Shown here: positions 2,707 through 17,444 of the stretch, one piece after another
How positions within the stretch are numbered: position 1 is the stretch's first letter
How the letters are laid out: each line of letters opens with the position of its first letter
IMG/VR virus record: IMGVR_UViG_3300042376_000629
Span: 1 to 34,468 of that record
Source: a virus
Length of the DNA: 34,468 nucleotides
Direction: 5' to 3' (one strand)
Position numbers and translations under genes: made by a program
Notes under the pieces: model-generated
What the model saw: the letters and a program-made list of their open reading frames with translations, nothing else
Database searches by the model: none
Told to the model about the DNA's origin: nothing

Positions 2707-2726
2707 TTGGGTATTGTTATACCCAA
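2707..2726 (-). other. Perfect hairpin flush with the tRNA-Ile 3' end
   Basis: Arms TTGGGTAT and ATACCCAA pair over 8 bp around a 4-nt loop. It begins at the base after the tRNA discriminator. It is one of seven such tRNA-trailing hairpins in the window. Confidence 0.75.
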
Positions 2727-2799
2727 TGGAAATAACTGGACTTGAACCAGTGGTCTTTCGATTATCAGTCGAATGCTTTACCAACTAAGCTATATTTCC
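2727..2799 (-). tRNA. tRNA-Ile(GAT)
   Basis: 73 nt cloverleaf. Acceptor GGAAATA pairs with TATTTCC, discriminator A; anticodon loop CTGATAA; canonical T-loop TTCAAGT. No CCA is encoded. It is the last of three clustered tRNAs. Confidence 0.95.
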
Positions 2800-2802
2800 A
2801 GA

Positions 2803-2874
2803 TGGGTTATGTTGGATTTGAACCAACGACTAATCGGTTAAAAGCCGAATACTCTACCACTGAGTTAATAACCC
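2803..2874 (-). tRNA. tRNA-Lys(TTT)
   Basis: 72 nt. Acceptor GGGTTAT/ATAACCC, discriminator A; anticodon loop CTTTTAA; T-loop TTCAAAT. It is separated from tRNA-Ile by 3 nt. Confidence 0.95.
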
Positions 2875-2878
2875 GAGG

Positions 2879-2967
2879 CGGAAGTGGTTGGATTTGAACC
2901 AACGGATGCCCTAAAGAACATCGGGAGATTAGCAATCTCCTGCATTAAACCACTCTGCCACACTTCC
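2879..2967 (-). tRNA. tRNA-Ser(GCT)
   Basis: 89 nt with the long variable arm of serine tRNAs. Acceptor GGAAGTG/CACTTCC, discriminator G; anticodon stem GGAGA/TCTCC with loop TTGCTAA. Confidence 0.94.
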
Positions 2968-2977
2968 AAAAAAGAAA

Positions 2978-3121
2978 TTAAACACCCAAAGGATATTCAA
3001 TTTCAATTTCATCTTCGTCAGGAAGACCAAGTTGAAGACTAATGTAGTCTTCATAATCAACACCGAGAAACTTTTTAGCAAAGTCCTCGTAATCATCGTG
3101 AAGAACGCAAGTGTCAATCAT
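2978..3121 (-). CDS. Acidic 47-aa protein (LGxDYED family)
   Basis: It starts MIDTCVLHDDYEDFAKKFLG and ends EDEIEIEYPLGV. AAGGAGG lies 5 nt before the chosen ATG; an in-frame ATG three bases upstream would be only 2 nt from it. Its core FAKKFLGVDYEDYISL resembles FAEYLGIDYEDLYQL in the gene at 27709. It lies 10 nt upstream of tRNA-Ser. Function unknown. Confidence 0.65.
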   Translation of the reverse strand: MIDTCVLHDDYEDFAKKFLGVDYEDYISLQLGLPDEDEIEIEYPLGV

Positions 3122-3138
3122 CATAACCTCCTTGACTT

Positions 3139-3153
3139 GATGAATACATCATA
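3139..3153 (-). promoter_or_regulatory. Extended -10 promoter with inverted repeat
   Basis: TGCTATGATG (-10 at 3148-3153). TGATG..CATCA forms a 5-bp inverted repeat that starts inside the -10 box. It serves the 47-aa gene and probably the tRNA trio below it. Confidence 0.6.
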
Positions 3154-3182
3154 GCATGGTCAGGACCGTTTGGAAAGTGTTG

Positions 3183-3206
3183 TGTGCCACCTAAAAAAGT
3201 GTCACA
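3183..3206 (-). terminator. Stem-loop overlapping a stop codon
   Basis: TGTGACAC pairs with GTGGCACA with one mismatch. The TGA of the 76-aa gene lies inside the proximal arm. It is an imperfect relative of the 1871 and 4395 stem-loops. Confidence 0.55.
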
Positions 3207-3432
3207 AGGTCTCAACGTCCTCCAGCAATTCTGGATTGTATTCTTTTACTTCTGTGATGAGTTCTTCATCATTATACTCATTGAGATTGGAAACAAGAGT
3301 ATCATAAACAAAACACTCCATTGTCTTCATATCCATTGAATCCATTATTTGTTGTGCATAATCTTCAATGAGTTTTTCACGATTGAGAGACATTTTGTTA
3401 AACTCCAAGATTTCTTTGTAAAGGTCAGTCAT
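3202..3432 (-). CDS. Acidic 76-aa protein, function unknown
   Basis: It starts MTDLYKEILEFNK at an ATG whose A is also the last base of the upstream TGA (TGATG), implying coupled translation. It is predicted all-helical and highly acidic at the C-terminus (NPELLEDVETL). No known motif. Confidence 0.65.
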   Translation of the reverse strand: MTDLYKEILEFNKMSLNREKLIEDYAQQIMDSMDMKTMECFVYDTLVSNLNEYNDEELITEVKEYNPELLEDVETL

Positions 3433-3653
3433 CAAACAGCATCAATTTCAGCAAGTTTCTTTTGCTTTCGCAAATCAGTGATAATCATTTGAAGTTCAGC
3501 AATATCTTCATACAGAACTTCTGCTTCATCAGCAAGATTTTCGTATTGAAATGAAGACCTTGCTTTCTTCATTTGCTTGAGAAGTTTATCATACTTCTTC
3601 TTTGCTTCTTTGAGTTCTTTTTCGTAATCTTGAATAGACTTTGAGTAATTCAT
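3432..3653 (-). CDS. Coiled-coil 73-aa protein
   Basis: Nearly the whole protein is one heptad-rich helix (KELKEAKKKYDKLLKQMKKA, later ADEAEVLYEDIAELQ). It overlaps the upstream 43-aa membrane protein gene by ATGA and the downstream 76-aa gene by TGATG. It is probably a small oligomer. Function unknown. Confidence 0.65.
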   Translation of the reverse strand: MNYSKSIQDYEKELKEAKKKYDKLLKQMKKARSSFQYENLADEAEVLYEDIAELQMIITDLRKQKKLAEIDAV

Positions 3654-3781
3654 TTGTTGAAAGGAGAATTGAAATAACTACGAAAAACAGTAATAAGAAT
3701 AACAAAAGTAAAAATAAGACCACCCAAACCAGCAATAGTAGTCCCATCACCAGTGAAATTGTAAGTTGAAATCTGGTTCAT
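3650..3781 (-). CDS. Small membrane protein, 43 aa
   Basis: MNQISTYNFTGDGTTIAG leads into one transmembrane helix (GLGGLIFTFVILITVF) and the tail RSYFNSPFNK. The frame is exact between a promoter and the next gene, with ATGA overlap. First gene of a three-gene operon. Function unknown. Confidence 0.6.
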   Translation of the reverse strand: MNQISTYNFTGDGTTIAGLGGLIFTFVILITVFRSYFNSPFNK

Positions 3782-3790
3782 CGTTTGATT

Positions 3791-3809
3791 GATTTACTCC
3801 GTAATCATA
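3791..3809 (-). promoter_or_regulatory. Extended -10 promoter with GATTAC inverted repeat
   Basis: TGCTATGATTAC with -10 at 3804-3809. GATTAC..GTAAATC is an inverted repeat with one bulged base. The same element occurs at 14050, 18445 and 29201. Confidence 0.65.
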
Positions 3810-3813
3810 GCAC

Positions 3814-3862
3814 AAAAAAGGGGCACTTGCAACCGTCAATAGACAGTTCGGCAAGTGTCCCC
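3814..3862 (-). terminator. Rho-independent terminator overlapping a gene end
   Basis: GGGGACACTTGC pairs with GCAAGTGCCCC (one bulge), followed by TTTTTT. The stem begins inside the last codons of the 75-aa gene, and the next promoter follows at once. Confidence 0.8.
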
Positions 3863-4063
3863 ACCAGAAAGACCAATGTTTTCTGAAATGGCATAGCACA
3901 AATTACCGTGCAAATCGTAATCAAGTTGTCCCATTTTATCTACTACTGCATCAGAAATCATTTGAATAAGAAACCCAATCCATCGTTCATCGTTGTAGAT
4001 ATATTCTACAACTTCTGGTGCAAGTGCAGCAGCAATTTTATTCAGAGACTTAGCAGAAATCAT
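3836..4063 (-). CDS. Conserved 75-aa protein, function unknown
   Basis: Helical protein starting MISAKSLNKIAAALAPEVVE, with a hydrophobic stretch RWIGFLIQMISDAVVDKMG that looks amphipathic rather than membrane-spanning. The ATG overlaps the upstream stop as ATGA. Its last codons form part of the terminator at 3814-3862. Confidence 0.65.
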   Translation of the reverse strand: MISAKSLNKIAAALAPEVVEYIYNDERWIGFLIQMISDAVVDKMGQLDYDLHGNLCYAISENIGLSGGDTCRTVY

Positions 4064-4314
4064 TGGTCGGTAGAAGTATAAAAAACAAAATCAACAACAC
4101 GATTGCTGTTTGTCTTAACACTATTTACAATAGTTTCACCATTATCCAACCACCACAGTTGTGCAACAGTAGCAAAATAAGAAACTACACCAACAACAAT
4201 CGCACAAATCGTAGCAACAACAAAGATGATGCTTTCACCAAACTTCACATAATCAATCTTCTGTAGATTACCATAAAGGTCATCAGCAGGAGGAAATCCA
4301 AGTGTTGAGTTCAT
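4060..4314 (-). CDS. Single-pass membrane protein, 84 aa
   Basis: Start chosen at MNSTLGFPPADD, because codons further upstream fall in the poly-T leader. A transmembrane helix spans about residues 27-50 (SIIFVVATICAIVVGVVSYF). The C-terminal half is polar with aromatic WWLDN. It is coupled to the 75-aa gene by ATGA. Function unknown. Confidence 0.65.
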   Translation of the reverse strand: MNSTLGFPPADDLYGNLQKIDYVKFGESIIFVVATICAIVVGVVSYFATVAQLWWLDNGETIVNSVKTNSNRVVDFVFYTSTDQ

Positions 4315-4394
4315 TTTAATAAAGAAAAAGAATTGTGGTCTCTGTCTCAACCACCCTTTAAGAATACCACAGTTTATGGTCTGTGCTCTTTTAC

Positions 4395-4418
4395 TGTGCC
4401 ACTAGAACAAGTGGCACA
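4395..4418 (-). terminator. Perfect 9-bp stem-loop
   Basis: Arms TGTGCCACT and AGTGGCACA flank a 6-nt loop, 3 nt beyond the stop codon at 4422. The stem sequence is identical to 1871-1894. A TGG-TATTCT extended -10 lies about 27 nt further on. Confidence 0.7.
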
Positions 4419-4421
4419 CGA

Positions 4422-4610
4422 CTATGGAGTGGGGTCATAATAAACAATCTCTTCCAGTGCAGGAAGAATTTCATATTGAATAGTTTCCAAATGAGTTCCA
4501 ATAATAGTCATATCCATCTCGTGAAGTTTATTTTCACGTTCTACAACTTCTTTGAGAATCTTGTATGCTTTTTCGATTTCAGCATAAGAATAGATGATTT
4601 TGGATTCCAT
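4422..4610 (-). CDS. Helical 62-aa protein, function unknown
   Basis: Starts MESKIIYSYAEIEKAYK. I chose the ATG that overlaps the upstream TAA, because GAGGTG lies 7 nt before it; an ATG two codons upstream is only 2 nt from GAGGTG. Acidic ending ALEEIVYYDPTP. Confidence 0.6.
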   Translation of the reverse strand: MESKIIYSYAEIEKAYKILKEVVERENKLHEMDMTIIGTHLETIQYEILPALEEIVYYDPTP

Positions 4611-4873
4611 TACCATTCACCTCGTTGAATCATAATTTTTTTAATTTCAGTATATATAAACTTCTTTAGTTTTTCGTCGTTTGTACTTTCAAAAGCAGCA
4701 TACAATCTCTTTAGATAGTCTTCTTGTTTTGTGATATTCACAACTTTAACATTTGTGACACCAATATCACGCATAGAAGAACCTGCTTTTGTTTTTGCTC
4801 TTCCAAAATTGCCAGTTACATTACCTTGAGTACGAAGTTTAGGTTTGATTTTAGAAAGATTAGAGTAAATCAT
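4610..4873 (-). CDS. Basic 87-aa protein, function unknown
   Basis: Starts MIYSNLSKIKPKLRTQGNVT. It has a basic, probably flexible N-terminal half rich in Gly, Lys and Thr, followed by a helical C-terminal half (YLKRLYAAFEST, LKKFIYTEIKKIM). First gene after an extended -10 promoter. Possibly RNA- or DNA-binding by charge alone. Confidence 0.6.
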   Translation of the reverse strand: MIYSNLSKIKPKLRTQGNVTGNFGRAKTKAGSSMRDIGVTNVKVVNITKQEDYLKRLYAAFESTNDEKLKKFIYTEIKKIMIQRGEW

Positions 4874-4885
4874 CAATCAGGTCAT

Positions 4886-4918
4886 TGATACAAGTATCAT
4901 AGCACCTACTCTGGTGCT
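4886..4918 (-). promoter_or_regulatory. Compact stem-loop plus palindromic promoter cassette
   Basis: AGCACC..GGTGCT (4901-4918) encloses the stop codon of the 61-aa gene. TATGAT (4896-4901) follows at once and is overlapped by the perfect palindrome TGATAC-TT-GTATCA (4886-4899). It is the tightest example of the stem-loop/promoter unit. Confidence 0.65.
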
Positions 4919-5091
4919 TTGGGGGGTACAGGGGACACTTTCGCATCTGGTCCCTTGACCTCAACAAATAACCTATTCAATATATCATCACAAACTTGAT
5001 ATGATTTAGATGTTAAACCAACTTTATTCATTTGATATAATCTTACAGCATTATAGATAATCTTTTTTTCTTCTAAATTAAATTCAGTCAT
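4906..5091 (-). CDS. 61-aa protein, function unknown
   Basis: Starts MTEFNLEEKKIIYNAVRLYQ, helical, with a Pro-rich tail GPDAKVSPVPPKAPE. Its ATG precedes the upstream TGA, giving an 8-nt overlap and likely coupled translation. Confidence 0.6.
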   Translation of the reverse strand: MTEFNLEEKKIIYNAVRLYQMNKVGLTSKSYQVCDDILNRLFVEVKGPDAKVSPVPPKAPE

Positions 5092-5407
5092 CTAACTCCA
5101 CATCTTTCACAAGGTCTTTGAGATTATTAACAAAATCTTCATCCATAGGAATCAGTTTCTCTTCACCTCTATCAATTCTATCGCACATTTCCATAAGGTA
5201 CTCAAGAAACTCTTTTGGTAAAGTTTCATCCATATTGATAGAACACCAGAACCAATTATAACATTCTTCATATGGGTCGTCAGTTTTTAGAAGAGCATAG
5301 TCCTTATAGTTTCCACTAATAAGGTCTCTCCACATCTTGAAGTTGTTCCACATCTCCCTCCAACCAGTTTGAAAGCAGTGTCCGAAATAATACTCAAACC
5401 AATTCAT
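5084..5407 (-). CDS. Aromatic-rich 107-aa protein, function unknown
   Basis: Starts MNWFEYYFGHCFQTGWREMW, unusually rich in Trp, Tyr and Phe, then an acidic C-terminal half (MDEDFVNNLKDLVKDVELDD). No membrane helix is clear. Its ATG shares one base with the upstream TGA. Confidence 0.65.
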   Translation of the reverse strand: MNWFEYYFGHCFQTGWREMWNNFKMWRDLISGNYKDYALLKTDDPYEECYNWFWCSINMDETLPKEFLEYLMEMCDRIDRGEEKLIPMDEDFVNNLKDLVKDVELDD

Positions 5408-5949
5408 CAGTGCTCTACCATTCCCTGAAGATACCTTATCGTATCATCCATACGGGCATCAGTCAAGTGTGCTGCAGGATTGAACCCAAGATGTGTATTA
5501 TGTTGATTCAACCAGTGTATCATAAGTTCTTCATCACCACCCACAAGAACATACAAATACTTATAGAGTTGTAGTAGTTTCAGTGGTTCAATGTCACCCA
5601 AAGGCATATGGAGAGCATTTGCTGCTTTTGTTGCTTTTTCTTTTAGAAATTCTTCATCAGTCAAACGAGCAATCAGTTCTTGTCGTTTTTGTTCTTTGAG
5701 TTTCTCTTCTTCTTTTTGTTTCAACATACTCACAAAAGTATCCATTAGATAGTCAAAAGAACAACCAGAATTATACCAATTACTTTCACATTCTTTAGTG
5801 ATAAAGGTTGTTTCATCAAAGTTATTGGTATAAAGTTCATAGAACCTGATTTTGTAATCACCATCCGTATCTTCCTTCACATCATAAGAAAGACCAAGTT
5901 GAGTTGCGTAAGTGAAAAGTTCAAGAAGGTCAGTTGTGGAAACAGTCAT
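5407..5949 (-). CDS. 180-aa protein with MbcA/ParS-like C-terminal motif
   Basis: Residues 1-70 are a mixed alpha/beta domain; 74-95 are a charged coiled coil; residues about 138-178 contain WLNQHNTHLGFNPAAHL. That segment resembles the toxin-binding tail of MbcA/ParS/Xre antitoxins (WLxxPNxxLGGxTPLELL). The resemblance is seen by eye only. If real, it could neutralise a host toxin. First gene of an operon with a TATAAT box 24 nt upstream. Confidence 0.6.
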   Translation of the reverse strand: MTVSTTDLLELFTYATQLGLSYDVKEDTDGDYKIRFYELYTNNFDETTFITKECESNWYNSGCSFDYLMDTFVSMLKQKEEEKLKEQKRQELIARLTDEEFLKEKATKAANALHMPLGDIEPLKLLQLYKYLYVLVGGDEELMIHWLNQHNTHLGFNPAAHLTDARMDDTIRYLQGMVEH

Positions 5950-5972
5950 CAGGTTTCTGTGTGTATGAGAGT

Positions 5973-5978
5973 ATTATA
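5973..5978 (-). promoter_or_regulatory. -10 box TATAAT flush with an upstream stop codon
   Basis: GATATAATACTCTCATACAC: the -10 directly abuts the TGA of the upstream gene, and the ACTCTCATACA leader is shared with the promoters at 6279 and 10244. Confidence 0.6.
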
Positions 5979-6263
5979 TCAAATAGAATTGGGATAAGTT
6001 ATTTCAGTCCAAGGAAGAGTTTTCAGTTCTTCATATGTAAATTGAATGCCATCATCAAGTCGTGCTTCATTTTTATAGAGATAAAACTGCTTGAAATTCA
6101 CAACAGTTCCTCTCAAATCACCATCCTCATCTACCTGATAAACAAGAACATCACAATACTTATTTCTATCATAAGTCAGGATTTTTGCTCTACGAATAGG
6201 TGCTTTTTCTCCCCCAATATCACCATAAGATGGAATGGGATAATCAGTAAAGGCATCAAGCAT
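5979..6263 (-). CDS. Conserved cyanophage protein, 94 aa
   Basis: Starts MLDAFTDYPIPSYGD; codons upstream lie inside the promoter leader. GGA precedes the ATG. It has a beta-rich middle (APIRRAKILTYDRNKYCDVL, then GTVVNFKQFYLY). The DYPIPSxGD N-terminus recurs in many cyanomyoviruses. Function unknown. Confidence 0.7.
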   Translation of the reverse strand: MLDAFTDYPIPSYGDIGGEKAPIRRAKILTYDRNKYCDVLVYQVDEDGDLRGTVVNFKQFYLYKNEARLDDGIQFTYEELKTLPWTEITYPNSI

Positions 6264-6278
6264 TTGGAGTTCCTTTGT

Positions 6279-6295
6279 GTATGAGAGTATCATAC
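6279..6295 (-). promoter_or_regulatory. Extended -10 promoter within an inverted repeat
   Basis: TGG-TATGAT (-10 at 6289-6294) lies in the perfect repeat GTATGA-n5-TCATAC. A degenerate copy of the GTGCCA stem-loop sequence lies at about 6323-6345. Confidence 0.6.
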
Positions 6296-6335
6296 CACCC
6301 ACAGAGGCACCCAGAGCATCCCCTGTGCCAGTTCA

Positions 6336-6488
6336 TCAAGTGTCCTCACCCAAGTTCTTATAAATCGCATCCATCCATATCTTATCAAAATATTTCCTGT
6401 CTTCATCAGTAATCATATTTGCTCTCATATACTCTTCAAGTGTGATGTTATTATCATCCAAGAACTTTTGGAGTTCTTCAATAGTCAT
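6336..6488 (-). CDS. Acidic 50-aa protein, function unknown
   Basis: MTIEELQKFLDDNNITLEEY..., predicted helical with helix-turn character. Start chosen where the frame emerges from the upstream gene (11-nt overlap); ten extra upstream codons are in frame but unlikely. Ends YKNLGEDT at a degenerate stem-loop. Confidence 0.55.
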   Translation of the reverse strand: MTIEELQKFLDDNNITLEEYMRANMITDEDRKYFDKIWMDAIYKNLGEDT

Positions 6489-6738
6489 CCAAAGAAACCT
6501 CAAAGGTAATTCTAGCACCAGTAGTATTGATATACTTATGTCCCATTTCCATATTCATACTTACCACCTGTGCCTCACCATTTTTGATTTTTTCTGCTAC
6601 TTGTTGAAAAGATGCTTTCAAGTCATCAAGGTCATAAGATTTAAGTTTTGATAGTTTTGGTTTCTCTACTGGTTTTGGAGGTTCTGGTGGTTTTGGATTG
6701 TAGAGTTCATTATATTTTTCTATGAGTGGGTTAGTCAT
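6478..6738 (-). CDS. 86-aa protein with Pro/Lys-rich N-terminus
   Basis: MTNPLIEKYNELYNPKPPEP is followed by PKPVEKPKLSK, a flexible linker, then a helix (LDDLKASFQQVAEKIKNGEA) and a beta hairpin. GGGAGG sits against the ATG, which overlaps the upstream stop (ATGA). Function unknown. Confidence 0.6.
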   Translation of the reverse strand: MTNPLIEKYNELYNPKPPEPPKPVEKPKLSKLKSYDLDDLKASFQQVAEKIKNGEAQVVSMNMEMGHKYINTTGARITFEVSLDDY

Positions 6739-6938
6739 CCTCCCAAATCTCCACTCACTACAATAGGTTCTACATCACCACAGACAACTTCTGCGTTCAT
6801 TTGTTCCATAATAATAGACACCTTATCCATAACTCTTTCTCTGGTTTCTTGTGTCCAAATGCTATTTCCAACGACACTCAAACTTTTATAAAGAGTATTA
6901 TGGATTACCATAAGGTCTGCTGCTGATAGTTTAGTCAT
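6735..6938 (-). CDS. 67-aa protein, function unknown
   Basis: MTKLSAADLMVIHNTLYKSL..., a helical bundle-like N-terminus, then a hydrophobic beta-like tail (VEPIVVSGDLGG). ATGA overlap on both sides places it in the middle of a translationally coupled string. Confidence 0.6.
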   Translation of the reverse strand: MTKLSAADLMVIHNTLYKSLSVVGNSIWTQETRERVMDKVSIIMEQMNAEVVCGDVEPIVVSGDLGG

Positions 6939-7069
6939 TCCTCATCCCCAATATTTCCCCAACGATGAAGTGCTTCACGAATAGTATTTCTAACTTCGGG
7001 ATAAAGATTGTAATACCCTCCAATCTCATCCCAAAGTTCATCAATTTGTTCGTCGGTTGGTTCAGTCAT
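6935..7069 (-). CDS. Acidic 44-aa protein, function unknown
   Basis: MTEPTDEQIDELWDEIGGYY... ending HRWGNIGDEE. AAGGAG lies 12 nt before the ATG. Its leader and first four codons are an exact 31-bp copy of those of the gene at 7112-7378. Confidence 0.6.
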   Translation of the reverse strand: MTEPTDEQIDELWDEIGGYYNLYPEVRNTIREALHRWGNIGDEE

Positions 7070-7088
7070 AATCAATAATCAACTCCTT
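7058..7088 (-). repeat. 31-bp direct repeat, copy 1 (leader plus MTEP codons)
   Basis: Identical to 7367-7397. It contains AAGGAG, a TGATTATTGATT spacer, ATG and the first three codons after it. Confidence 0.85.
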
Positions 7089-7110
7089 CTGTTTTTTCAA
7101 TTTCAGTCAT
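7072..7110 (-). CDS. Possible 12-codon leader ORF
   Basis: ATG to TGA reads MTEIEKTEGVDY and fills the gap between two genes. GAGGTAAAGTAAA precedes it. It may simply pass ribosomes to the 44-aa gene, since its codons contain that gene's AAGGAG. Weak call. Confidence 0.25.
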   Translation of the reverse strand: MTEIEKTEGVDY

Positions 7111-7111
7111 T

Positions 7112-7378
7112 TTACTTTACCTCACCTTTTCGTAAGTCAATAAACACAAATTTATCATTTATTTGATGAATTATAAACCACGAAGAGTTTTCATCATCAA
7201 TCATAGTTTTTACTTCATCAAGAGTATCATACAACTTCAAAAACTCCCAATCACTCCATTTACCAGTAAGTTCGTGATGAGTTCCTTCATCAATCCAAAA
7301 TTGAAAAGAATACTGAAAGTCAGTATCACTTATATTACGAATTTTATGAGTATCGGTTAGGTATAGTGGTTCAGTCAT
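7112..7378 (-). CDS. 88-aa protein, function unknown
   Basis: MTEPLYLTDTHKIRNISDTD..., with a beta-rich C-terminal half (SSWFIIHQINDKFVFIDLRK). AAGGAG lies 12 nt before the ATG within the duplicated leader. Two codons upstream (ATT, ATG) are in frame; the chosen ATG matches the copy at 7069. Confidence 0.6.
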   Translation of the reverse strand: MTEPLYLTDTHKIRNISDTDFQYSFQFWIDEGTHHELTGKWSDWEFLKLYDTLDEVKTMIDDENSSWFIIHQINDKFVFIDLRKGEVK

Positions 7379-7397
7379 AATCAATAATCAACTCCTT
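7367..7397 (-). repeat. 31-bp direct repeat, copy 2
   Basis: Exact copy of 7058-7088, covering the leader, ATG and first codons of the 88-aa gene. Confidence 0.85.
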
Positions 7398-7417
7398 GGT
7401 ATTAATGTTGAAGGATT

Positions 7418-7624
7418 TCATTTCACATCCACCCAATCATCATAATAATATCCATAAGAACCTCCACCACTATGATTTTTACATAGAATATTACTACAAG
7501 AAAACCAATAGTCAAAGTTTTTACTTTCTGGTCGCACTTCCAAAAGAGATTGATTACACAGGTATTCTAACACAGGATTTTCACAATCGGTGCATTTACC
7601 AACAACACCCAAACAATCATTCAT
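7418..7624 (-). CDS. Putative zinc-binding 68-aa protein
   Basis: Seven cysteines, among them CTDC near residue 11 and CSNILC near residue 43, suggest a structural zinc ribbon. The tail is Gly/Tyr-rich (GGGSYGYYYDDW). It overlaps the upstream gene by 8 nt. Function unknown. Confidence 0.6.
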   Translation of the reverse strand: MNDCLGVVGKCTDCENPVLEYLCNQSLLEVRPESKNFDYWFSCSNILCKNHSGGGSYGYYYDDWVDVK

Positions 7625-7790
7625 TTTCTTTCCTCCAAGTGTGTAGGATTTCTCCTGTTTCCTTATGAATCAAATGTGCCCAATCAACTTGGTTGGTTTC
7701 ACACACTCTAACAAAATTTTCTTTACTTGAACTATAAGCAACAATAGGAAGAAGGTGGGAGTGATGATAGTAGATTGCGGAAAGGGTCAT
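7617..7790 (-). CDS. 57-aa protein, function unknown
   Basis: MTLSAIYYHHSHLLPIVAYS..., ending LHTWRKENE. Mixed alpha/beta, His/Tyr-rich at the start. ATGA overlap with the upstream gene supports the start, and the downstream overlap (ATGAATGA) supports the end. Confidence 0.6.
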   Translation of the reverse strand: MTLSAIYYHHSHLLPIVAYSSSKENFVRVCETNQVDWAHLIHKETGEILHTWRKENE

Positions 7791-8002: not shown

Positions 8003-8026
8003 TGGAGTTCCTTTGTTTGTCCTACT

Positions 8027-12236: not shown

Positions 12237-12505
12237 GGTTTTTCGGGAAGCACAGGAGGGGGAGGAGTTAGAGGAGGTTGAACCACTTGAACTGGAGGAG
12301 TTACAGGTTGCTGAACTACTTGAATTTGAGGAGTAATAGGTTGTTCTTTTTTTGCTTCTAGTTGTTGCTTTAGGTCTTCAATAATAACCTGTTGTTTCTG
12401 ACTATTCTCTTGTTGATTGTCAAAGACCTTATATGCAGTAATAGAAGTTGCTGCGATTGTACCCAGAGCAGCAATCGTTGAAACAGTAGTACTAAACCGA
12501 CTCAT
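12233..12505 (-). CDS. Membrane-anchored coiled-coil, Pro-rich 90-aa protein
   Basis: An N-terminal hydrophobic helix (residues 7-24, TVSTIAALGTIAATSITAYK), then a coiled coil (IIEDLKQQLEAKKEQ) and repeated VQQPVTPP, VQPPLTPPPP units. The layout fits an envelope-spanning protein. It could act in lysis with the 64-aa gene product, but no spanin family match is visible. Confidence 0.6.
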   Translation of the reverse strand: MSRFSTTVSTIAALGTIAATSITAYKVFDNQQENSQKQQVIIEDLKQQLEAKKEQPITPQIQVVQQPVTPPVQVVQPPLTPPPPVLPEKP

Positions 12506-12719
12506 TTTTCTCCAAGATAGTTTTAATTTGTTTAAGGTCTTCTACTCGTTGTTTTGCTTCATCATACTGCTCACAATACCAATCAAGGTCATTGTTCTCA
12601 TAATTAGTTTCCTCTCTAATGTCCCATTCAAGACATTGTAGGTGCCCTTCTTGGTCTTCTATAAAGTAGTTGAGAGTATCAATCAGAGACATTTTCATCA
12701 TCAAATTCAAATCATTCAC
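12492..12719 (-). CDS. Acidic coiled-coil protein, up to 75 aa
   Basis: Starts at 12719 (MNDLNLMMKMSLID); MSLIDTLNYF at 12692 is an equally good start. Long charged helix ending DLKQIKTILEKNESV. It overlaps the next gene by 14 nt. Function unknown. Confidence 0.55.
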   Translation of the reverse strand: MNDLNLMMKMSLIDTLNYFIEDQEGHLQCLEWDIREETNYENNDLDWYCEQYDEAKQRVEDLKQIKTILEKNESV

Positions 12720-12742
12720 ACAAAGAGTTCATTAGTTAGGTT

Positions 12743-13258
12743 TCATTTTGCTTTACCATGAAGAGGACAGTCACCATTCACCCATTTACGGTCATTAGGC
12801 ATCTCTGCATTGTCCATCACGGGGCACTTGCAACCTGCTCTACATGCTTGATCTGAACCAGGAACTAAACCATTCCACTCTTTATATTGCTCTGGAAGAA
12901 CTCTTGCAAGTTTTTCTTTTAACTCACGAACTTCTTCCTTTAATGCATAATACTCATCATCAGTGTGATATTGCTTATCTTGCAGTTCATATTCATTCAT
13001 CAACTTCTTCATCTGTTCTCCATCGTTACTATCGTTGAATGCAAGACGGCAAGCACCATCCATAATGCTATACTCAGCAAAATCCATAGCACGAAGAAAT
13101 GCCTTGAACAGTTCAAAGTGCTGATAAACATTCATATCTTGAGCAGGTGCTTCAATCGTAATTGAATGCTTATCAACAATCTCTGGAAAATATTTACTCG
13201 AAATAGTTGCTTCAGTGTTGTTGATGTAGCAGAGTTTTACCGTTGCGTCGTAAGTCAT
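12743..13258 (-). CDS. 171-aa protein with C-terminal Cys-rich segment
   Basis: N-terminal alpha/beta domain (residues 1-95), a coiled coil at about 100-120 (LKEEVRELKEKLARVL) and a C-terminal motif with ACRAGCKCPVMDN, KWVNGDCPLHG. That GCxCPVxDN...CPLHG pattern recurs in many phages and probably binds metal. Function unknown. Confidence 0.7.
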   Translation of the reverse strand: MTYDATVKLCYINNTEATISSKYFPEIVDKHSITIEAPAQDMNVYQHFELFKAFLRAMDFAEYSIMDGACRLAFNDSNDGEQMKKLMNEYELQDKQYHTDDEYYALKEEVRELKEKLARVLPEQYKEWNGLVPGSDQACRAGCKCPVMDNAEMPNDRKWVNGDCPLHGKAK

Positions 13259-13263
13259 TTGAT

Positions 13264-13428
13264 TTAACGAGAATAATAAAGTTCTTCTTGAATGCTTGTG
13301 AGTTTATTATACAATTGATTGACAGAAATCGAAAGAGTTTCTTCAACAATCATTTGATTTTGTTTTGAAAGCAATTGAAGTGAAGTCAGAATAGCATCAA
13401 TCTCTGGTTTATTCAGTTCTACTGTCAT
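13264..13428 (-). CDS. 54-aa helical protein
   Basis: MTVELNKPEIDAILTSLQLL..., all-helical, ending QEELYYSR. Starts with ATGA overlap at the upstream stop; fourteen in-frame upstream codons are within that gene. Function unknown. Confidence 0.6.
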   Translation of the reverse strand: MTVELNKPEIDAILTSLQLLSKQNQMIVEETLSISVNQLYNKLTSIQEELYYSR

Positions 13429-13631
13429 TTTACAATCCTCCAATGTTCGTTTCCATTCTTCGGCAACCACATAAAGTATTTCCTATTCAAAGAGGCAAGA
13501 AATATCATATCACCTTTTTCTTGTTCTACGTGGCATCCGTGAAGATTATCCATAATGTTTGCAAACCGATTCTTTGCTTTTGAAGAAATTGGTTCAACAT
13601 TCACCATTTTACGTTTTTCTTTAGTCATCAT
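13425..13631 (-). CDS. Conserved 68-aa cyanophage protein
   Basis: Contains HGCHVEQEKGDMIFLASLNR and MWLPKNGNEHWRIVK, seen in related cyanophage proteins. Two adjacent ATGs (13631 and 13628) are possible starts. Function unknown. Confidence 0.65.
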   Translation of the reverse strand: MMTKEKRKMVNVEPISSKAKNRFANIMDNLHGCHVEQEKGDMIFLASLNRKYFMWLPKNGNEHWRIVK

Positions 13632-14038
13632 ACTGCAAGAGCACCAGAGGGGATTTCAACGACTTCAAACGTTTTTCCGTCTTCATACTTATAACAATCA
13701 TAGCATACCCATTCTCCATTTACAAAGAGATAAGCATACTCTTCACCATTTTCAAGATACTCATTGAGATTAGCATCAAGACGAGGAGGACAATCCTCAC
13801 CACGGAGGGAATAATAATTTGGACCATACTTGGATGCTTTACCATCACAATCAAATGGAGTATCAGTCCAGCAAGAACTCATATCACCACCATCAATCAG
13901 TTCTTCGGCAAGAGATTTGGAGTTGTAGTGAGTAGTAAGAATACGACCCAACCAAGATGGGTATCCATCCCAATGGTGATAAGAAGATAATACAGAACCA
14001 TCAGAGAGTTCAATACCGATGCGTGACCTTGTACTCAT
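13628..14038 (-). CDS. Conserved phage protein (STRSRIG family), 136 aa
   Basis: MSTRSRIGIELSDGSVLSSY with HHWDGYPSWLGRIL is the signature of a widespread phage and bacterial hypothetical family. Then LIDGGDMSSCW, and a C-terminal beta region (YLFVNGEWVCYDC). First gene of its operon, behind a TATAAT promoter carrying the GATTAC repeat. Confidence 0.75.
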   Translation of the reverse strand: MSTRSRIGIELSDGSVLSSYHHWDGYPSWLGRILTTHYNSKSLAEELIDGGDMSSCWTDTPFDCDGKASKYGPNYYSLRGEDCPPRLDANLNEYLENGEEYAYLFVNGEWVCYDCYKYEDGKTFEVVEIPSGALAV

Positions 14039-14049
14039 TTGCTTTGTTT

Positions 14050-14067
14050 GATTACTCTGTAATTATA
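14050..14067 (-). promoter_or_regulatory. Extended -10 promoter with GATTAC repeat
   Basis: TGC-TATAAT (-10 at 14062-14067) runs into AATTAC-AGA-GTAATC. Confidence 0.65.
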
Positions 14068-14125
14068 GCAGGTCTGCAAGGGCATTGGAGGGGTTGTGTG
14101 CCAGTCCTCACAGTGACACAAGGCA

Positions 14126-14152
14126 CAAAAATAGGAGGCATTACACCTCCTT
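14126..14152 (-). terminator. Rho-independent terminator
   Basis: AGGAGG, 7-nt loop, CCTCCT, then ATTTTT. Its proximal arm is also a perfect ribosome-binding sequence before an ATG in the loop (29-codon ORF 14052-14141). Confidence 0.7.
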
Positions 14153-14153
14153 G

Positions 14154-14365
14154 TAAGTTTTGGGTAAGAAGGAAACTTATAACCCCCTCACTCGTTTAGT
14201 TCAAACAGAAACTGTTTGACGAGAGAAAGCAACAATGTTGTTTACGTTTGTTTGTTTGTTCCGTCAACAGATAATACATACATCCCAGTCGATTCTATTT
14301 TATCCCCACGAAATGGAGATAATCGGTACTGCCCCGATGTGTTGGAATATAGAGGTTTATCCTCT
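14154..14365 (-). ncRNA. Candidate structured RNA: five tandem hairpins before a terminator
   Basis: The 335 bp between 14038 and 14374 hold no plausible protein gene. In minus-strand order: AGAGG/CCTCT (14351-14365), ATCGG/CCGAT (14322-14338), a 9-bp stem TTATCTCCA/TGGGGATAA (14300-14322), CTCGT-CAAACAG/CTGTTTG-ACGAG (14191-14223), TAAGTTT/AAACTTA (14154-14179), then the terminator at 14126. The 9-bp stem has a G.U pair on the minus strand but a mismatch on the plus strand, which favours minus-str RNA. No promoter of its own is clear. Confidence 0.45.
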
Positions 14366-14373
14366 TGAACTCT

Positions 14374-14913
14374 TTATATAGTAGCACACATTTCAATTAA
14401 ATTCAAGAGAACATCTTCAGCATATTTGTTTTTAGCAAAATTTAAAGTCGTGCTAATAAATTGTATATTTCCTTTTACATATCCTTTTGAACTATCAATC
14501 CTATCTAAACTAGCAACTAAATTTGGATTTGATTTATCGTGAGATTGGTCAGTCAAAGGAAGAACTAATTCTCTTTTTAAATAAGGACATTTGCCTTCTT
14601 GTATTTCCCACACTTCTTTTAGATAATTCAAATCAATATCACATTCTCTATTTTTAGATTTACTTCTGCTTCTAACTTTTTTTAAAGTTTCTCTAAAAGA
14701 AGAATAGTCATCTTTATCACTTCCACTAAATTGCTTTATAAAATTTTTGTTAGTTTCACTTTTTCTCCAACTATCCAAATAAGAAGTATCATGAGAACTG
14801 CTGGAGCATTTTAAACTACAAAAAAATGGAGTTCCCAATTTAATTTTCCTATTATATTCACTTTTAATTTTTTCAAACTGCGACCCACATTTTTTACAAA
14901 TACAACTAACCAT
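14374..14913 (-). CDS. HNH-type endonuclease with N-terminal zinc finger, 179 aa
   Basis: An N-terminal zinc finger with C4, C6, C9 (VSCICKKCG) and C32-x3-C36 (FFCSLKCSSSS). The C-terminal part has GKCPYLKRELVL, VASLDRIDSSKGYVKGNIQF, the DRID...GYVxGNIQ core of a cyanophage HNH-like nuclease family. GGAGAG lies 4 nt before the ATG; a GTG four codons upstream is less likely. A late promoter TATAAATA lies 22 nt upstream. Probably a free-standing homing nuclease beside tRNA-Ala. Confidence 0.78.
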   Translation of the reverse strand: MVSCICKKCGSQFEKIKSEYNRKIKLGTPFFCSLKCSSSSHDTSYLDSWRKSETNKNFIKQFSGSDKDDYSSFRETLKKVRSRSKSKNRECDIDLNYLKEVWEIQEGKCPYLKRELVLPLTDQSHDKSNPNLVASLDRIDSSKGYVKGNIQFISTTLNFAKNKYAEDVLLNLIEMCATI

Positions 14914-14934
14914 AGTGCTCTCCACAACTATAGT

Positions 14935-14942
14935 TATTTATA
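14935..14942 (-). promoter_or_regulatory. T4-like late promoter TATAAATA
   Basis: Exact late consensus on the minus strand, 22 nt before the HNH start. Confidence 0.65.
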
Positions 14943-14963
14943 ATATTCCCTTACTCTCCACAA

Positions 14964-15036
14964 TGGAAGCATCGAGTCTCGAACTCGAAACCTCTTGAAT
15001 GCAAATCAAGTGCTCTACCAATTGAGCTATGCCCCC
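14964..15036 (-). tRNA. tRNA-Ala(TGC)
   Basis: 73 nt. GGGGGCA pairs with TGCTTCC (two G.U), discriminator A; anticodon loop TTTGCAT; T-loop TTCGAGA. No CCA encoded. Confidence 0.94.
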
Positions 15037-15040
15037 ATAA

Positions 15041-15061
15041 TGAGTGTAATTAATACACTCA
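15041..15061 (-). other. tRNA-trailing hairpin after tRNA-Asn
   Basis: TGAGTGTA-n5-TACACTCA, 8 bp, starting 2 nt after the discriminator. Confidence 0.75.
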
Positions 15062-15063
15062 AA

Positions 15064-15136
15064 CTCCCCACCTAGGTAACGCTCCTAGCTATCTCGAATT
15101 AACAGTTCGGCCCATTCGCTTGCTTGGTCGTGGGGA
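15064..15136 (-). tRNA. tRNA-Asn(GTT), non-canonical elbow
   Basis: 73 nt. Perfect acceptor TCCCCAC/GTGGGGA, discriminator G as expected for Asn, anticodon loop CTGTTAA at exactly positions 32-38. However, the T-loop reads AGCGTTA instead of TTCRANY, position 8 is G, and the D-loop lacks GG at 18-19. It may be functional with an unusual elbow or decaying. Confidence 0.75.
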
Positions 15137-15147
15137 TTATAAAAACG

Positions 15148-15309
15148 TCAAGTATTCATTAAATACTCAACAGTGTTTGCTACATCATTCATAGCATCAC
15201 GAAGATTTTCTCTTTGACCTGATTCTTGTTTAACAATTGGACGATGATCATCACAAAGAGTCCATCTCCATTGATTCATTTCTTTACAGTACCAAAGATT
15301 AATTTTCAT
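15148..15309 (-). CDS. 53-aa protein, function unknown
   Basis: MKINLWYCKEMNQWRWTLCD... ending NTVEYLMNT. Trp/Cys-rich first half, helical second half. It overlaps the upstream gene by 11 nt and lies 12 nt before tRNA-Asn. Confidence 0.6.
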   Translation of the reverse strand: MKINLWYCKEMNQWRWTLCDDHRPIVKQESGQRENLRDAMNDVANTVEYLMNT

Positions 15310-15454
15310 TCTTGTTGTATTCGATTTTAATCCAATTCATAAGTGCATTGAGTTCCATTCTTTTTTCTTCAGTAAAGTCATTACCTTTATTGAAAAGATA
15401 AAAGTCCAGTGCTTCAATTACAACTTCTCTATCTCTTTGTGAAATTAAGGACAT
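15299..15454 (-). CDS. 51-aa protein, function unknown
   Basis: MSLISQRDREVVIEALDFYL..., helical and charged. The start is tentative: no ribosome site is visible, and codons further upstream enter the tRNA-Pro trailer hairpin and gene. Confidence 0.5.
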   Translation of the reverse strand: MSLISQRDREVVIEALDFYLFNKGNDFTEEKRMELNALMNWIKIEYNKNEN

Positions 15455-15470
15455 AATGAATTTGTAGTAT

Positions 15471-15493
15471 TTGGAGATATTTAGATTCTCCAA
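15471..15493 (-). other. tRNA-trailing hairpin after tRNA-Pro
   Basis: TTGGAGA-n9-TCTCCAA, 7 bp, 1 nt after the discriminator. Confidence 0.7.
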
Positions 15494-15494
15494 G

Positions 15495-15566
15495 TCGGGG
15501 TGACTGGGATCGAACCAGTGTCTTTTTGCTCCCAAAGCAAACCGTCTACCGCTGACTTACACCCCG
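15495..15566 (-). tRNA. tRNA-Pro(TGG)
   Basis: 72 nt. CGGGGTG/CACCCCG, discriminator A; anticodon loop TTTGGGA; T-loop TTCGATC. Confidence 0.94.
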
Positions 15567-15573
15567 TAATGTT

Positions 15574-15593
15574 TAGCAATCTTATGATTGCTA
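15574..15593 (-). other. tRNA-trailing hairpin after tRNA-Val
   Basis: TAGCAATC-ATAA-GATTGCTA, 8 bp, 1 nt after the discriminator. Confidence 0.75.
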
Positions 15594-15594
15594 G

Positions 15595-15667
15595 TGGGAA
15601 ATCACAGATTCGAACTGTGGACTTTCTGCGTGTAAAGCAGACACTCTAACCACTGAGTTAATCTCCC
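15595..15667 (-). tRNA. tRNA-Val(TAC)
   Basis: 73 nt. GGGAGAT/ATTTCCC, discriminator A; anticodon loop TTTACAC; T-loop TTCGAAT. It begins directly after the encoded CCA of tRNA-Gly. Confidence 0.94.
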
Positions 15668-15670
15668 TGG

Positions 15671-15742
15671 AGCGGACAATCGGATTCGAACCGACGACAT
15701 CTAACTTGGAAGGATATCGTTCTACCACTGAACTATGTCCGC
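15671..15742 (-). tRNA. tRNA-Gly(TCC)
   Basis: 72 nt. GCGGACA/TGTCCGC, discriminator T; anticodon loop CTTCCAA; T-loop TTCGAAT. The anticodon stem has two mismatches (T.T and A.G). CCA is encoded at 15668-15670, the only case in the window. Confidence 0.88.
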
Positions 15743-15757
15743 ATTATTTGATTGTAA

Positions 15758-15777
15758 GACAGAATCAAAATTCTGTC
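15758..15777 (-). other. tRNA-trailing hairpin after tRNA-Thr
   Basis: GACAGAAT-TTTG-ATTCTGTC, 8 bp, 1 nt after the discriminator. Confidence 0.75.
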
Positions 15778-15778
15778 A

Positions 15779-15850
15779 AGCCCCCGACAAGATTTGAACT
15801 TGCGACCAATGGTTTACAAAACCATTGCTCTACCACTGAGCTACAAGGGC
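15779..15850 (-). tRNA. tRNA-Thr(TGT)
   Basis: 72 nt. GCCCTTG/CGGGGGC (two G.U), discriminator T; anticodon loop TTTGTAA; T-loop TTCAAAT. Confidence 0.93.
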
Positions 15851-15854
15851 ATTA

Positions 15855-15870
15855 TGCTCCATAAGGAGCA
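15855..15870 (-). other. tRNA-trailing hairpin after tRNA-Ser(TGA)
   Basis: TGCTCC-TTAT-GGAGCA, 6 bp, 1 nt after the discriminator. Confidence 0.7.
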
Positions 15871-15871
15871 A

Positions 15872-15956
15872 CGGAAGTGGTAGGATTCGAACCCACGATG
15901 GCTTTCACCATGCTTGTTTTCAAGACAAGTTCCTTCAACCACTCGGACACACTTCC
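15872..15956 (-). tRNA. tRNA-Ser(TGA)
   Basis: 85 nt with long variable arm. GGAAGTG/CACTTCC, discriminator G; anticodon loop CTTGAAA; T-loop TTCGAAT. Acceptor sequence is identical to that of tRNA-Ser(GCT) at 2879. Confidence 0.94.
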
Positions 15957-15976
15957 ATTCATCAATTATACACTAT

Positions 15977-16816
15977 CTATACAACGGAGTCAAGTGTATA
16001 ATTGGTAATGAGCAACTCAGTCTTTACATTGTCCTGAGTTCCTTTCTCACCACGATGAACCATCGAATACCTTAACTTCCATTCATTTAGATTATACTCT
16101 TTATAACGACTCAATAACCAATCATTGAGATTGTAAGTAATCATAAAACGATGAGGACATTTATCCACATCATCAGCAAATCTTTCGTGAGAGAATGATG
16201 AGTGAAGTTTTCTTCCAGTTCCATAAAGGAAGTCCTTAATATCATAAGGTGGGTCAAGAAATACAAACACATCATCACCCTCTGCGTTCATCACTTCTTC
16301 ATAGTCAATGTTTGTAATCCTCCAGTCCTTAATAATATAAGAATACCTAGGAAGTTTATCAATACCAACCAATGAGAAGTTAGAACGTGATGCTTGAACT
16401 GAAAATGTTGAGTTCTCTGTAAGACCAGAATAAGAACACTTATTCATTACAAAGAACGCAACTGCTTGGTCGATTGGTTCAAGATTACCAATCGTGTGAG
16501 AGTAATCATCAAAGAGTTCTCGGTGTGCATTATCATCACCATTCACTTCTTCTTTGATTGCTCTCAACTTATCTTTAAGAACTTGTCCGTCATCACGAAG
16601 TTGAACCCAAAAGTTATACAAGTAATAATACTTGTCATTGACCCAGATGGGAACTTTTGGATAGTTTTGTGATACCATTAAAGAAATGCTTCCACCACCC
16701 AAGAAGGGTTCACGGAACTCTTTGAAGTCACTTGGAAACCAAGGAGCAAGAGTTTTTAATGCTTTACTCTTGCCTCCAGGGTAACGGAGCATTGTCTTTA
16801 ACGGAAATTGTTTCAT
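15977..16816 (-). CDS. dam: D12-class DNA N6-adenine methyltransferase (Dam-like)
   Basis: 279 aa. It has the motifs of this class: RYPGGKSKALKTL (residues 11-23), the S-adenosylmethionine loop EPFLGGGSISL (36-46), and catalytic DPPY (188-191). It should methylate adenine in a short target on double-stranded DNA; GATC is the usual target of the family and is nearly absent here. The ATG overlaps the stop of the 193-aa gene as ATGA. Start MKQFPLKTMLRYPGGK fits the family. Confidence 0.92.
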   Translation of the reverse strand: MKQFPLKTMLRYPGGKSKALKTLAPWFPSDFKEFREPFLGGGSISLMVSQNYPKVPIWVNDKYYYLYNFWVQLRDDGQVLKDKLRAIKEEVNGDDNAHRELFDDYSHTIGNLEPIDQAVAFFVMNKCSYSGLTENSTFSVQASRSNFSLVGIDKLPRYSYIIKDWRITNIDYEEVMNAEGDDVFVFLDPPYDIKDFLYGTGRKLHSSFSHERFADDVDKCPHRFMITYNLNDWLLSRYKEYNLNEWKLRYSMVHRGEKGTQDNVKTELLITNYTLDSVV

Positions 16817-17394
16817 CGGTTCTTAATCCAGTTATTCATCGTTTCACGAAGAAGGTCAGACAGTCTATCAGGAGACGCAGGAAAAGTAAAGTTAGCAATA
16901 TCCAAATCAAGAACAGTGAGTTCATTGATAGGAAATTGAACCATTACCCCATCACCTTTGCTTACATAATACTTCTGTGCTGTCTCACGAGAAGCAATAG
17001 CAACTCGATAAGCATCACGGTCGATAATCATTACATAATCAAACTTGTCTTCTGTTTTGAACCGATTGAATGCAACTTCACTCACATCTCCTCGGTAGTT
17101 TTTCATCTTAACATCTTTGCAGGTTCCATCTTTTTTGAAGAAACCTTTGAGGAACTTTGCTTCAATACGAACAAGTTCTTCAAGAACTTTCAAGAGAAAA
17201 TCAACACCATCTTCGTCAATATATTCAACCTGTGAAAAACAAGCAATAGCAAGTTCAAATACTTTTGCTCTCAAAAAGTTATCTGAATTACTCTTAAATC
17301 CTTTATCAGAATAAGCATCTTTAACTGCCCCAAAGATAAGGTTCCAGTCAAATTCAGTTTCACAGATGTTTTTAAATTCAGTAGTCGTAATCAT
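16813..17394 (-). CDS. 193-aa protein coupled to the methylase; candidate nuclease
   Basis: No family is recognised with confidence. An E-x-K at 78-80 (VRIEAKFL), then KMKNYRG (96-102) and FDYVMIIDRDAYRVAIASRE, resembles the fold order of PD-(D/E)xK restriction nucleases (ExK strand, N-x-RG, hydrophobic strand with D). The stop overlaps the methylase start by 4 nt. I infer a possible restriction partner; it could also be a methylase accessory or unrelated protein. Confidence 0.6.
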   Translation of the reverse strand: MITTTEFKNICETEFDWNLIFGAVKDAYSDKGFKSNSDNFLRAKVFELAIACFSQVEYIDEDGVDFLLKVLEELVRIEAKFLKGFFKKDGTCKDVKMKNYRGDVSEVAFNRFKTEDKFDYVMIIDRDAYRVAIASRETAQKYYVSKGDGVMVQFPINELTVLDLDIANFTFPASPDRLSDLLRETMNNWIKNR

Positions 17395-17428
17395 AAGTTA
17401 GATAATTCTATAAGTTAGAGTTTACGAT

Positions 17429-17444
17429 TTGCCCTTTCGGGCAA
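17429..17444 (-). other. tRNA-trailing hairpin after tRNA-Leu
   Basis: TTGCCC-GAAA-GGGCAA, 6 bp with a stable GAAA tetraloop, flush with the discriminator. Confidence 0.75.

Follow-up and report, generated by a model that had tools for sequence, protein, structure and literature searches.

Seven tRNA genes of the IMG/VR virus record IMGVR_UViG_3300042376_000629, analysed here over its whole 34,468 bases (the window; G+C 37%), are each followed, 0–2 nucleotides (nt) past the discriminator, by a perfect hairpin (Table 1). Flush hairpins of this kind are a property of cyanophage tRNAs, with specificity for tRNA ends. The first-pass annotation of this DNA had recorded the seven with the right coordinates and as lacking encoded CCA, and indeed none of the trailers starts with CCA (0/7). 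We put at about even the chance that these are RNA hairpins which close off the 3' trailer of phage tRNAs without CCA, so that entry is open only to RNase Z and RNase P. More broadly, cyanophages may carry a position-defined class of RNA element, a flush guard hairpin that follows CCA-less tRNAs, fills spacers, and overlays promoters with the −35 box as one arm; together with promoters ending 7–10 nt before tRNA nucleotide 1, it would produce units nearly without leader or free trailer, unlike those of the hosts. This generalisation is plausible, though it falls slightly short of an even chance.

The window groups with T4-like cyanophages, judging from the matches of its 727-aa peptidase (phrog_459): the ten best matches listed (10/10) are all from Synechococcus phages, the top one, at 47.5%, being to Synechococcus phage DSL-LC02. 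At the nucleotide level it matches known phages over short stretches, many of them at tRNA genes.

Flush hairpins in the window

ARAGORN predicted 12 tRNAs in the window, and tRNA-Asn(GTT), which has an unusual T loop (AGCGTTA) and was missed by ARAGORN and at the Rfam gathering score, was added by hand. Automatic counting gave hairpins after six of nine non-abutted tRNAs, Asn being lost because it lacks the T-loop anchor, and after seven of ten once Asn was included. A hairpin of this kind begins within 0–3 nt of only 1124 of the 68816 positions on the two strands of the window (1.6%), which puts seven of ten far above chance (P = 3.6e-11; P = 4.9e-10 for 7/13 of all tRNAs). The tRNAs for Lys, Ser-GCT, and Gly have no hairpin and another tRNA 2–4 nt downstream, the acceptor stem of the neighbour occupying the equivalent place, and those for Ala, Met, and Arg have neither a hairpin nor a tRNA downstream. 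When Ser–Thr, Val–Pro, Asn–Ala, Ile, and Leu were folded together with their spacers or trailers, the minimum-energy structures had the hairpin immediately past the acceptor helix; not every cloverleaf was predicted perfectly. The earlier statement that the stems share no sequence is nearly right, except that T is favoured at the stem base, as in 64 of 64 offset-0 stems of the wider set described below.

Occurrence in cyanophages, hosts, and other phages

The survey covered at least 240 IMG/VR stretches fetched by two DNA patterns and at least 243 tRNAs from the tRNA regions of 21 named cyanophages. S-CRM01-related loci, defined by a tblastn hit at 1e-8, made up 106 of 241, and the remainder include other cyanophages (e.g., L046). 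Before counting, tRNAs without the TTCRA T-loop anchor (38/1406; 2/243 in the named phages), those with less than 80 nt downstream, and duplicates were excluded. The tRNA 3' end was re-anchored on the T loop, which moved it for 243 of 1368 anchored tRNAs. One contig, L095, is identical to the window over its tRNAs; it was kept in the offset profile and in the re-anchored rates and the ORF-end and T-tract, promoter-distance, and near-identical-tRNA counts, and was left out of the +1-base, promoter-palindrome, hairpin-versus-promoter, CCA, spacer, arm-diversity, folding, and covariation counts.

Stems started at offsets 0, 1, 2, and 3 after 57, 45, 28, and 23 of 922 free tRNAs, against 3.8, 2.4, 2.5, and 2.2 in dinucleotide-shuffled controls, and the upstream flanks were flat. 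Stem starts thus peak sharply at offsets 0–3. Re-anchored hairpin rates over these offsets were 59/398 in S-CRM01-related contigs, 93/513 in other contigs, and 34/166 in the 21 named cyanophages. Such hairpins occur in S-PM2, which infects Synechococcus WH7803, and in S-CREM1, which infects Synechococcus CB0101. Ends of open reading frames (ORFs) gave at most 19/800 and 3/221, figures summed over the four offsets in which an ORF with two stems counts twice, and these rule out a habit common to all gene ends. Inheritance from host tRNA genes is ruled out by a set of 70 free cyanobacterial tRNAs (Synechococcus, Prochlorococcus, and others), drawn as a subset from three genomes plus two cyanobacterial contigs, in which no flush hairpin was found (0/70). 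Nor is the feature common to all phage tRNA arrays, as in T4, KVP40, Felix O1, CcrColossus, and T5, where CCA is encoded in 100 of 107 tRNAs, only 2 of 59 free tRNAs have a flush stem, and both of these stems span the encoded CCA. An AT-rich window and the need to shift so many 3' ends might raise the suspicion of chance or an annotation artefact, but with P near 4e-11 in the window and with shuffled, upstream, ORF-end, host, and non-cyanophage controls that all differ, this explanation is refuted and its probability is close to nil.

Among non-abutted tRNAs at least 80% identical to those of the window, a stem (loop ≤20) was present in 2/6 for Ile, 19/49 for Leu, 10/22 for Thr, 22/94 for Gly, 1/5 for Val, 1/8 for Ser-TGA, 1/1 for Pro, and 2/10 for Arg; L095 is the only case for Val, Ser, and Pro and also contributes to the Leu and Thr counts. 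Two outcomes had been named as refuting the pattern, namely shuffled controls with equal stems and related phages lacking the stems at orthologous tRNAs. The shuffles fall well short of the real stems, but many orthologous tRNAs do lack one; it is therefore the position that is conserved, and not the stem at each individual gene. The suggestion that a tRNA and its hairpin form a movable unit is not supported, since near-identical tRNAs elsewhere carry different trailers or none. Among the 30 matches listed, those over window tRNAs extend at most 8 nt beyond the tRNA 3' end, and sequence-homologous mobile cassettes are ruled out by these short extensions, the trailer differences, and the diversity of 5' arms.

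Relation to encoded CCA and the first trailer base

In CCA-poor loci, 181 of 839 free CCA-less tRNAs are followed by a stem, compared with 2 of 210 free tRNAs in CCA-rich loci (p 4e-17). Sorted by the start of the trailer, stems occur in 138/562 cases with T, A, or G, 42/270 with a single C, 1/26 with CC (not CCA), and 2/205 with CCA. The +1 base is paired in the stem in 0 of 45 cases when it is C and in 62 of 136 when it is T (p 2e-10); in the host tRNAs sampled, +1 is T in 52 and C in 18 of 70. According to the available part of PMC7479834, RNase Z cuts directly past the discriminator and is repressed by C's that follow it. Because a +1 C is left unpaired and a +1 T is often paired, the stem appears to start at the predicted RNase Z cut, past a C that could be used as the first base of CCA. 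A C is also said to shift the cut site of Synechocystis RNase Z, reportedly a 2005 result of Ceballos-Chavez and Vioque. The hairpins thus have marks expected of a 3' processing signal of CCA-less tRNAs: they go with such tRNAs, begin at the predicted cut with offsets of 0–3, and leave a +1 C free.

Hairpins in tRNA–tRNA spacers

Gaps between tRNAs in CCA-poor loci are mostly 1–5 nt or at least 18 nt, with few intermediate. Of the 112 spacers of 18–40 nt in these loci, 73 contain a flush hairpin with 6 bp or more and 93 one with 5 bp or more, against means of 2.9 and 9.9 of 112 after single-base shuffling and 0/14 and 1/14 in CCA-rich loci; the test is not circular, since the spacers were picked by length and not by structure. 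At least one spacer hairpin of the 6-bp class is carried by 49 loci. Among the 93 spacer hairpins, 73 leave 3–6 nt ahead of the next tRNA, and the 5' arms comprise 59 distinct sequences.

For 90 of the 93 hairpin-bearing tRNA–spacer–tRNA precursors, partition-function calculations gave an upstream acceptor pairing of 0.65 with the real spacer, 0.47 with a shuffled one, and 0.67 with none. The real spacer beat the shuffled one for the upstream acceptor in 83/90 and for the downstream acceptor in 68/90 precursors, with some acceptor indices off by one, alike for real and shuffled precursors. Pairing close to the no-spacer level, and well above that with shuffled spacers, is what a non-interfering trailer should give; the folding benefit is a predicted one.

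Terminators, promoters, and palindromes

The claim that the hairpins are not ordinary terminators is borne out by the T counts: at least five T in the 8 nt past the stem occur after 18 of 185 tRNA hairpins, against 48 of 194 ORF-end hairpins in related contigs and 13 of 55 in named phages. Six window stems in the automatic count have 2–3 T, and a terminator scan of the window called none of the seven hairpins (0/7). Ordinary intrinsic terminators were rejected on the T-tract counts. In the window, the Ser–Thr, Val–Pro, and Asn–Ala hairpins are each followed by a tRNA without its own promoter in the scan. As T-tracts are rare and hairpins lie inside tRNA pairs lacking a second promoter, termination is unlikely as the main role.

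Three putative promoters of the window, scoring 11/12, stop 8 nt short of the first paired base of tRNA-Leu, -Ser(TGA), and -Gly; position and score alone distinguish them, because the scan gave 13 promoter-like sites in the region concerned, with 13.2 expected. The 5' arm of the Thr hairpin contains the GACA of TTGACA, the −35 of the tRNA-Gly promoter, and the scans found no such joined promoter at the Ile, Asn, Pro, Val, Ser, and Leu hairpins. In the contigs, the gap from the −10 to tRNA nucleotide 1 peaks at 7, 8, 9, and 10 nt (13, 25, 15, and 28 cases), a promoter-like site lying within 80 nt upstream of 200 of 1346 tRNAs; the corresponding numbers for the named phages are 2, 4, 4, and 4 cases and 33 of 243 tRNAs. 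If these sites act as promoters, such clustering would predict that many transcripts begin within a few nt of the tRNA.

An inverted repeat starts at the −35 in 54 of 73 promoters directly after a tRNA (30/39 without a tRNA next and 24/34 driving one), against 34 of 612 others (24/542 without a tRNA on either side and 10/70 driving but not following one). Palindromes of the first type have free arms and stop just ahead of the −10, and those of the second have recurrent arms near GACAATCA/TGATTGTC and extend past the −10. That the palindromes track the tRNA 3' end more than promoters generally points to RNA read through from the tRNA. Taken alone, covariation in the Thr-type promoter hairpins is weak: of 9 distinct inner sequences 6 are perfect, and 22 of 2000 permutations did equally well.

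These promoters bring to mind a terminator–promoter cassette of the promoter early stem-loop (PeSL) type, a kind of element described in T4-like phages (PMC4503421, available part). Read this way, the stem would terminate the tRNA transcript, and transcription would begin afresh there from an early or late promoter. As this reading predicts, hairpins are commoner where a promoter follows: with loops of up to 20 nt, they occur in 45/69 cases with a −35 0–3 nt past the tRNA, 16/56 with a −35 at 4–60 nt, 29/84 with a late TATAAATA within 80 nt, and 125/720 with none (11/69, 15/56, 24/84, and 86/720 for loops of up to 9 nt), and the inverted repeats at the −35 agree with it. Such a cassette is nevertheless an unlikely explanation. 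The enrichment of T-tracts is missing, a terminator has no need of a 0–3 nt start or a free +1 C, and the rate is 55/134 where a tRNA lies 18–59 nt downstream without a promoter, a place where termination would silence that tRNA. In addition, PeSL-like elements are few in the one S-PM2 region discussed in the available text of PMC4503421.

A role at the DNA level, with inverted repeats as operators or recombination sites that regulate or mobilise the tRNA genes, could draw on the conserved arms of the GACAATCA-15-TGATTGTC palindrome (at least 7/8 pairs), found at 27/73 post-tRNA promoters, 9/70 driving-only promoters, and 5/542 others, and on the GACAAT-initial arms of at least 23 of the 93 spacer hairpins. 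The type-2 palindrome may indeed act additionally at this level. As a general account it is very improbable, given that the remaining stems have little arm sequence in common (the 93 spacer hairpins have 59 different 5' arms) and that, among the matches listed, tRNA matches end within 8 nt.

Proposed function of the hairpins

We propose that the trailer folds on itself in the transcript, from the base past the discriminator or past an encoded first C. So folded, it would offer no single-stranded entry beside the tRNA for RNase E or 3' exonucleases and nothing free to pair with the acceptor stems, while RNase Z, reading the tRNA body, would still cut at the discriminator, with CCA added later. 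A spacer hairpin would leave mostly 3–6 free nt ahead of the next tRNA, which would suit RNase P, and where a promoter lies at the same spot its −35 would double as the 5' arm. Under this proposal selection acts only on position and self-complementarity, so that sequences vary freely; it would explain why stems start flush, spare a +1 C, go with CCA-less tRNAs, vary in sequence, and fill spacers. Cyanobacterial genomes have one gene each for RNase Z, RNase E, and RNase J (PMC10989914, available part). The earlier ideas that the hairpins mark the 3' processing point or block exonucleases fit the start at the discriminator boundary, the free +1 C, the near-confinement to CCA-less tRNAs, and the absence from the host tRNAs sampled. 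The data show where the hairpins sit, that they belong to tRNA ends, go with CCA-less tRNAs, and fill spacers, and that promoters there are palindromic, with a folding benefit predicted; the identity of the enzymes, and cleavage and protection as the source of the gain, we infer.

Several points weigh against this proposal. A flush stem follows just 181 of 839 free CCA-less tRNAs (about a fifth), the CCA-less host tRNAs sampled have none (0/70), and the stem is often missing after near-identical tRNAs of other phages; the stem is thus not required for processing and helps at most. A flush hairpin could also hinder RNase Z, and part of the CCA contrast may come from phage group or host and not from CCA itself. 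The p-values are inflated by phage kinship, relatedness having been handled only through duplicate removal. The folding result is no proof of selection, since the spacers folded all carried hairpins and any that pairs with itself would score well.

Alternatively, after the RNase Z cut the flush stem may head the remaining transcript as a 5' cap that blocks RNase J and 5'-end-dependent RNase E, both enzymes existing in cyanobacteria. Emory, Bouvet, and Belasco reportedly described in 1992 protective 5'-terminal stem-loops in E. coli that obey a short-distance rule, and the 0–3 nt limit fits that rule. The hairpins are, however, common in tRNA–tRNA spacers, where the downstream piece starts with a tRNA, and at fresh promoters, which makes a 5' cap rather improbable overall; it may hold where mRNA follows.

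Other features of the tRNA regions

Table 1. Coordinates of tRNAs, flush hairpins, and promoters in the window.
Feature	Position	Strand	Basis
Ile hairpin, 8 bp, offset 0	2707..2726	-	
tRNA-Ile(GAT), discriminator 2727, no CCA	2727..2800	-	ARAGORN, Rfam
tRNA-Lys(TTT) + tRNA-Ser(GCT), no hairpin	2803..2967	-	ARAGORN
tRNA-Ala(TGC), no 3' hairpin	14963..15037	-	ARAGORN
Asn hairpin, 8 bp, offset 2, fills Asn-Ala spacer	15041..15061	-	
tRNA-Asn(GTT)	~15064..15137	-	by hand
Pro hairpin, 7 bp, loop 9, offset 1 after unpaired C	15471..15493	-	
tRNA-Pro(TGG)	15494..15566	-	ARAGORN, Rfam
Val hairpin, 8 bp, offset 1 after unpaired C, fills Val-Pro spacer	15574..15593	-	
tRNA-Val(TAC) + tRNA-Gly(TCC), 3 nt between	15594..15742	-	ARAGORN, Rfam
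Putative promoter for tRNA-Gly, sigma70-like, TTGACA-17-TACAAT (11/12), overlies Thr hairpin; -10 to Gly nt 1, 8 nt	15751..15779	-	
Thr hairpin, 8 bp, offset 1	15758..15777	-	
tRNA-Thr(TGT)	15779..15850	-	ARAGORN, Rfam
Ser-TGA hairpin, 6 bp, offset 1, fills Ser-Thr spacer	15855..15870	-	
tRNA-Ser(TGA)	15871..15957	-	ARAGORN, Rfam
Putative promoter for tRNA-Ser, TTGACT-17-TATAAT (11/12), 8 nt ahead of first paired base; within inverted repeat of at least 11 bp (15964-16003)	15965..15993	-	
Leu hairpin, 6 bp, GAAA loop, offset 0	17429..17444	-	
tRNA-Leu(TAA)	17445..17529	-	ARAGORN, Rfam
Putative promoter for tRNA-Leu, TTGACA-17-TATGAT (11/12); inverted repeat GACAATCA...TGATTGTC, arms of at least 8 bp (17533-17563)	17537..17565	-	

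A DNA methyltransferase gene (phrog_56; 15977-16816, minus strand) lies between the Leu and Ser tRNAs, with about 470 bases 70% identical to S-SKS1 and S-SCSM1. Beside tRNAs of other phages, a stretch resembling ctcgctaggcagatagcctagaaggagg recurs after tRNA-Ser, -Arg, or -Thr (trailers in L301, L279, and L111) and looks like another structured RNA. In S-CREM1 (L241), annotated Rfam abiF and manA elements adjoin tRNA-Gly and tRNA-Asn, manA touching one end of tRNA-Asn.

The window also has a permuted transfer-messenger RNA (tmRNA) of the cyanobacterial type at 14135-14387 on the minus strand (RF01851, 79.8 bits against a cut-off of 70), the match finishing in a hairpin with a T-tract (14151-14133). 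Its tag reads NNIVAFSRQTVSV*, and that of four related contigs with sub-cut-off matches (L306-L309) reads NNIVSFRRTAVAV*. The host tag in three genomes is NNIV.FSRQ.APVAA*, and the phage tags are without the terminal Ala-Ala. A pattern search found no such tag in the stronger matches L302-L304. In S-CRM01 the match lies at 88334-88555, where no tmRNA is annotated.

Comparison with known systems

Hairpins flush with tRNA ends were not found described in the open-access literature searched, mostly titles and abstract openings, nor is the pattern described in the available parts of PMC9964418, PMC2988021, PMC4503421, PMC5931544, PMC10989914, PMC7479834, PMC2864571, PMC3161902, and PMC3014915; the words "hairpin", "stem", and "tmRNA" are absent from the main text, as available, of the S-CREM1 paper (PMC9964418). 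In the literature seen, work on phage tRNA arrays deals with codon supply and with evasion of tRNA-cutting defences, and tRNA release is little treated. A structural rule by which CCA-less and CCA-encoding phage tRNAs can be told apart offers a way into tRNA maturation during infection and makes tRNA ends easier to locate in phage contigs, and the overlay of hairpin and promoter packs two signals into one 30-nt stretch.

Like an intrinsic terminator, the element is a 6–8 bp stem just past a gene, but it differs in its flush start, its lack of a T-tract, and its place between tRNAs without an intervening promoter. With the 5'-terminal mRNA-stabilising stem-loops of the ompA type, it would share the short-distance rule if the RNase Z cut forms the 5' end; here, however, the stem follows a tRNA and the 5' end is a deduced one. 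The PeSLs of T4-like phages likewise combine a stem-loop with a sigma70-like promoter, and the Thr hairpin and the 54/73 post-tRNA promoters resemble them, whereas the scans give no joined promoter at any window hairpin but that of Thr, and the stems belong to tRNA 3' ends and are without T-tracts. By definition, the stem-loop of a PeSL is an effective terminator and its shared sequence mediates recombination; here the 93 spacer hairpins have 59 different 5' arms, yet the GACAATCA palindrome is widely shared. With the RNase Z pathway for CCA-less trailers, known from the Synechocystis and Bacillus enzymes, the phage tRNAs share CCA-less precursors and a +1 pyrimidine as in the hosts sampled, and they differ in the flush hairpin that the host trailers lack (0/70).

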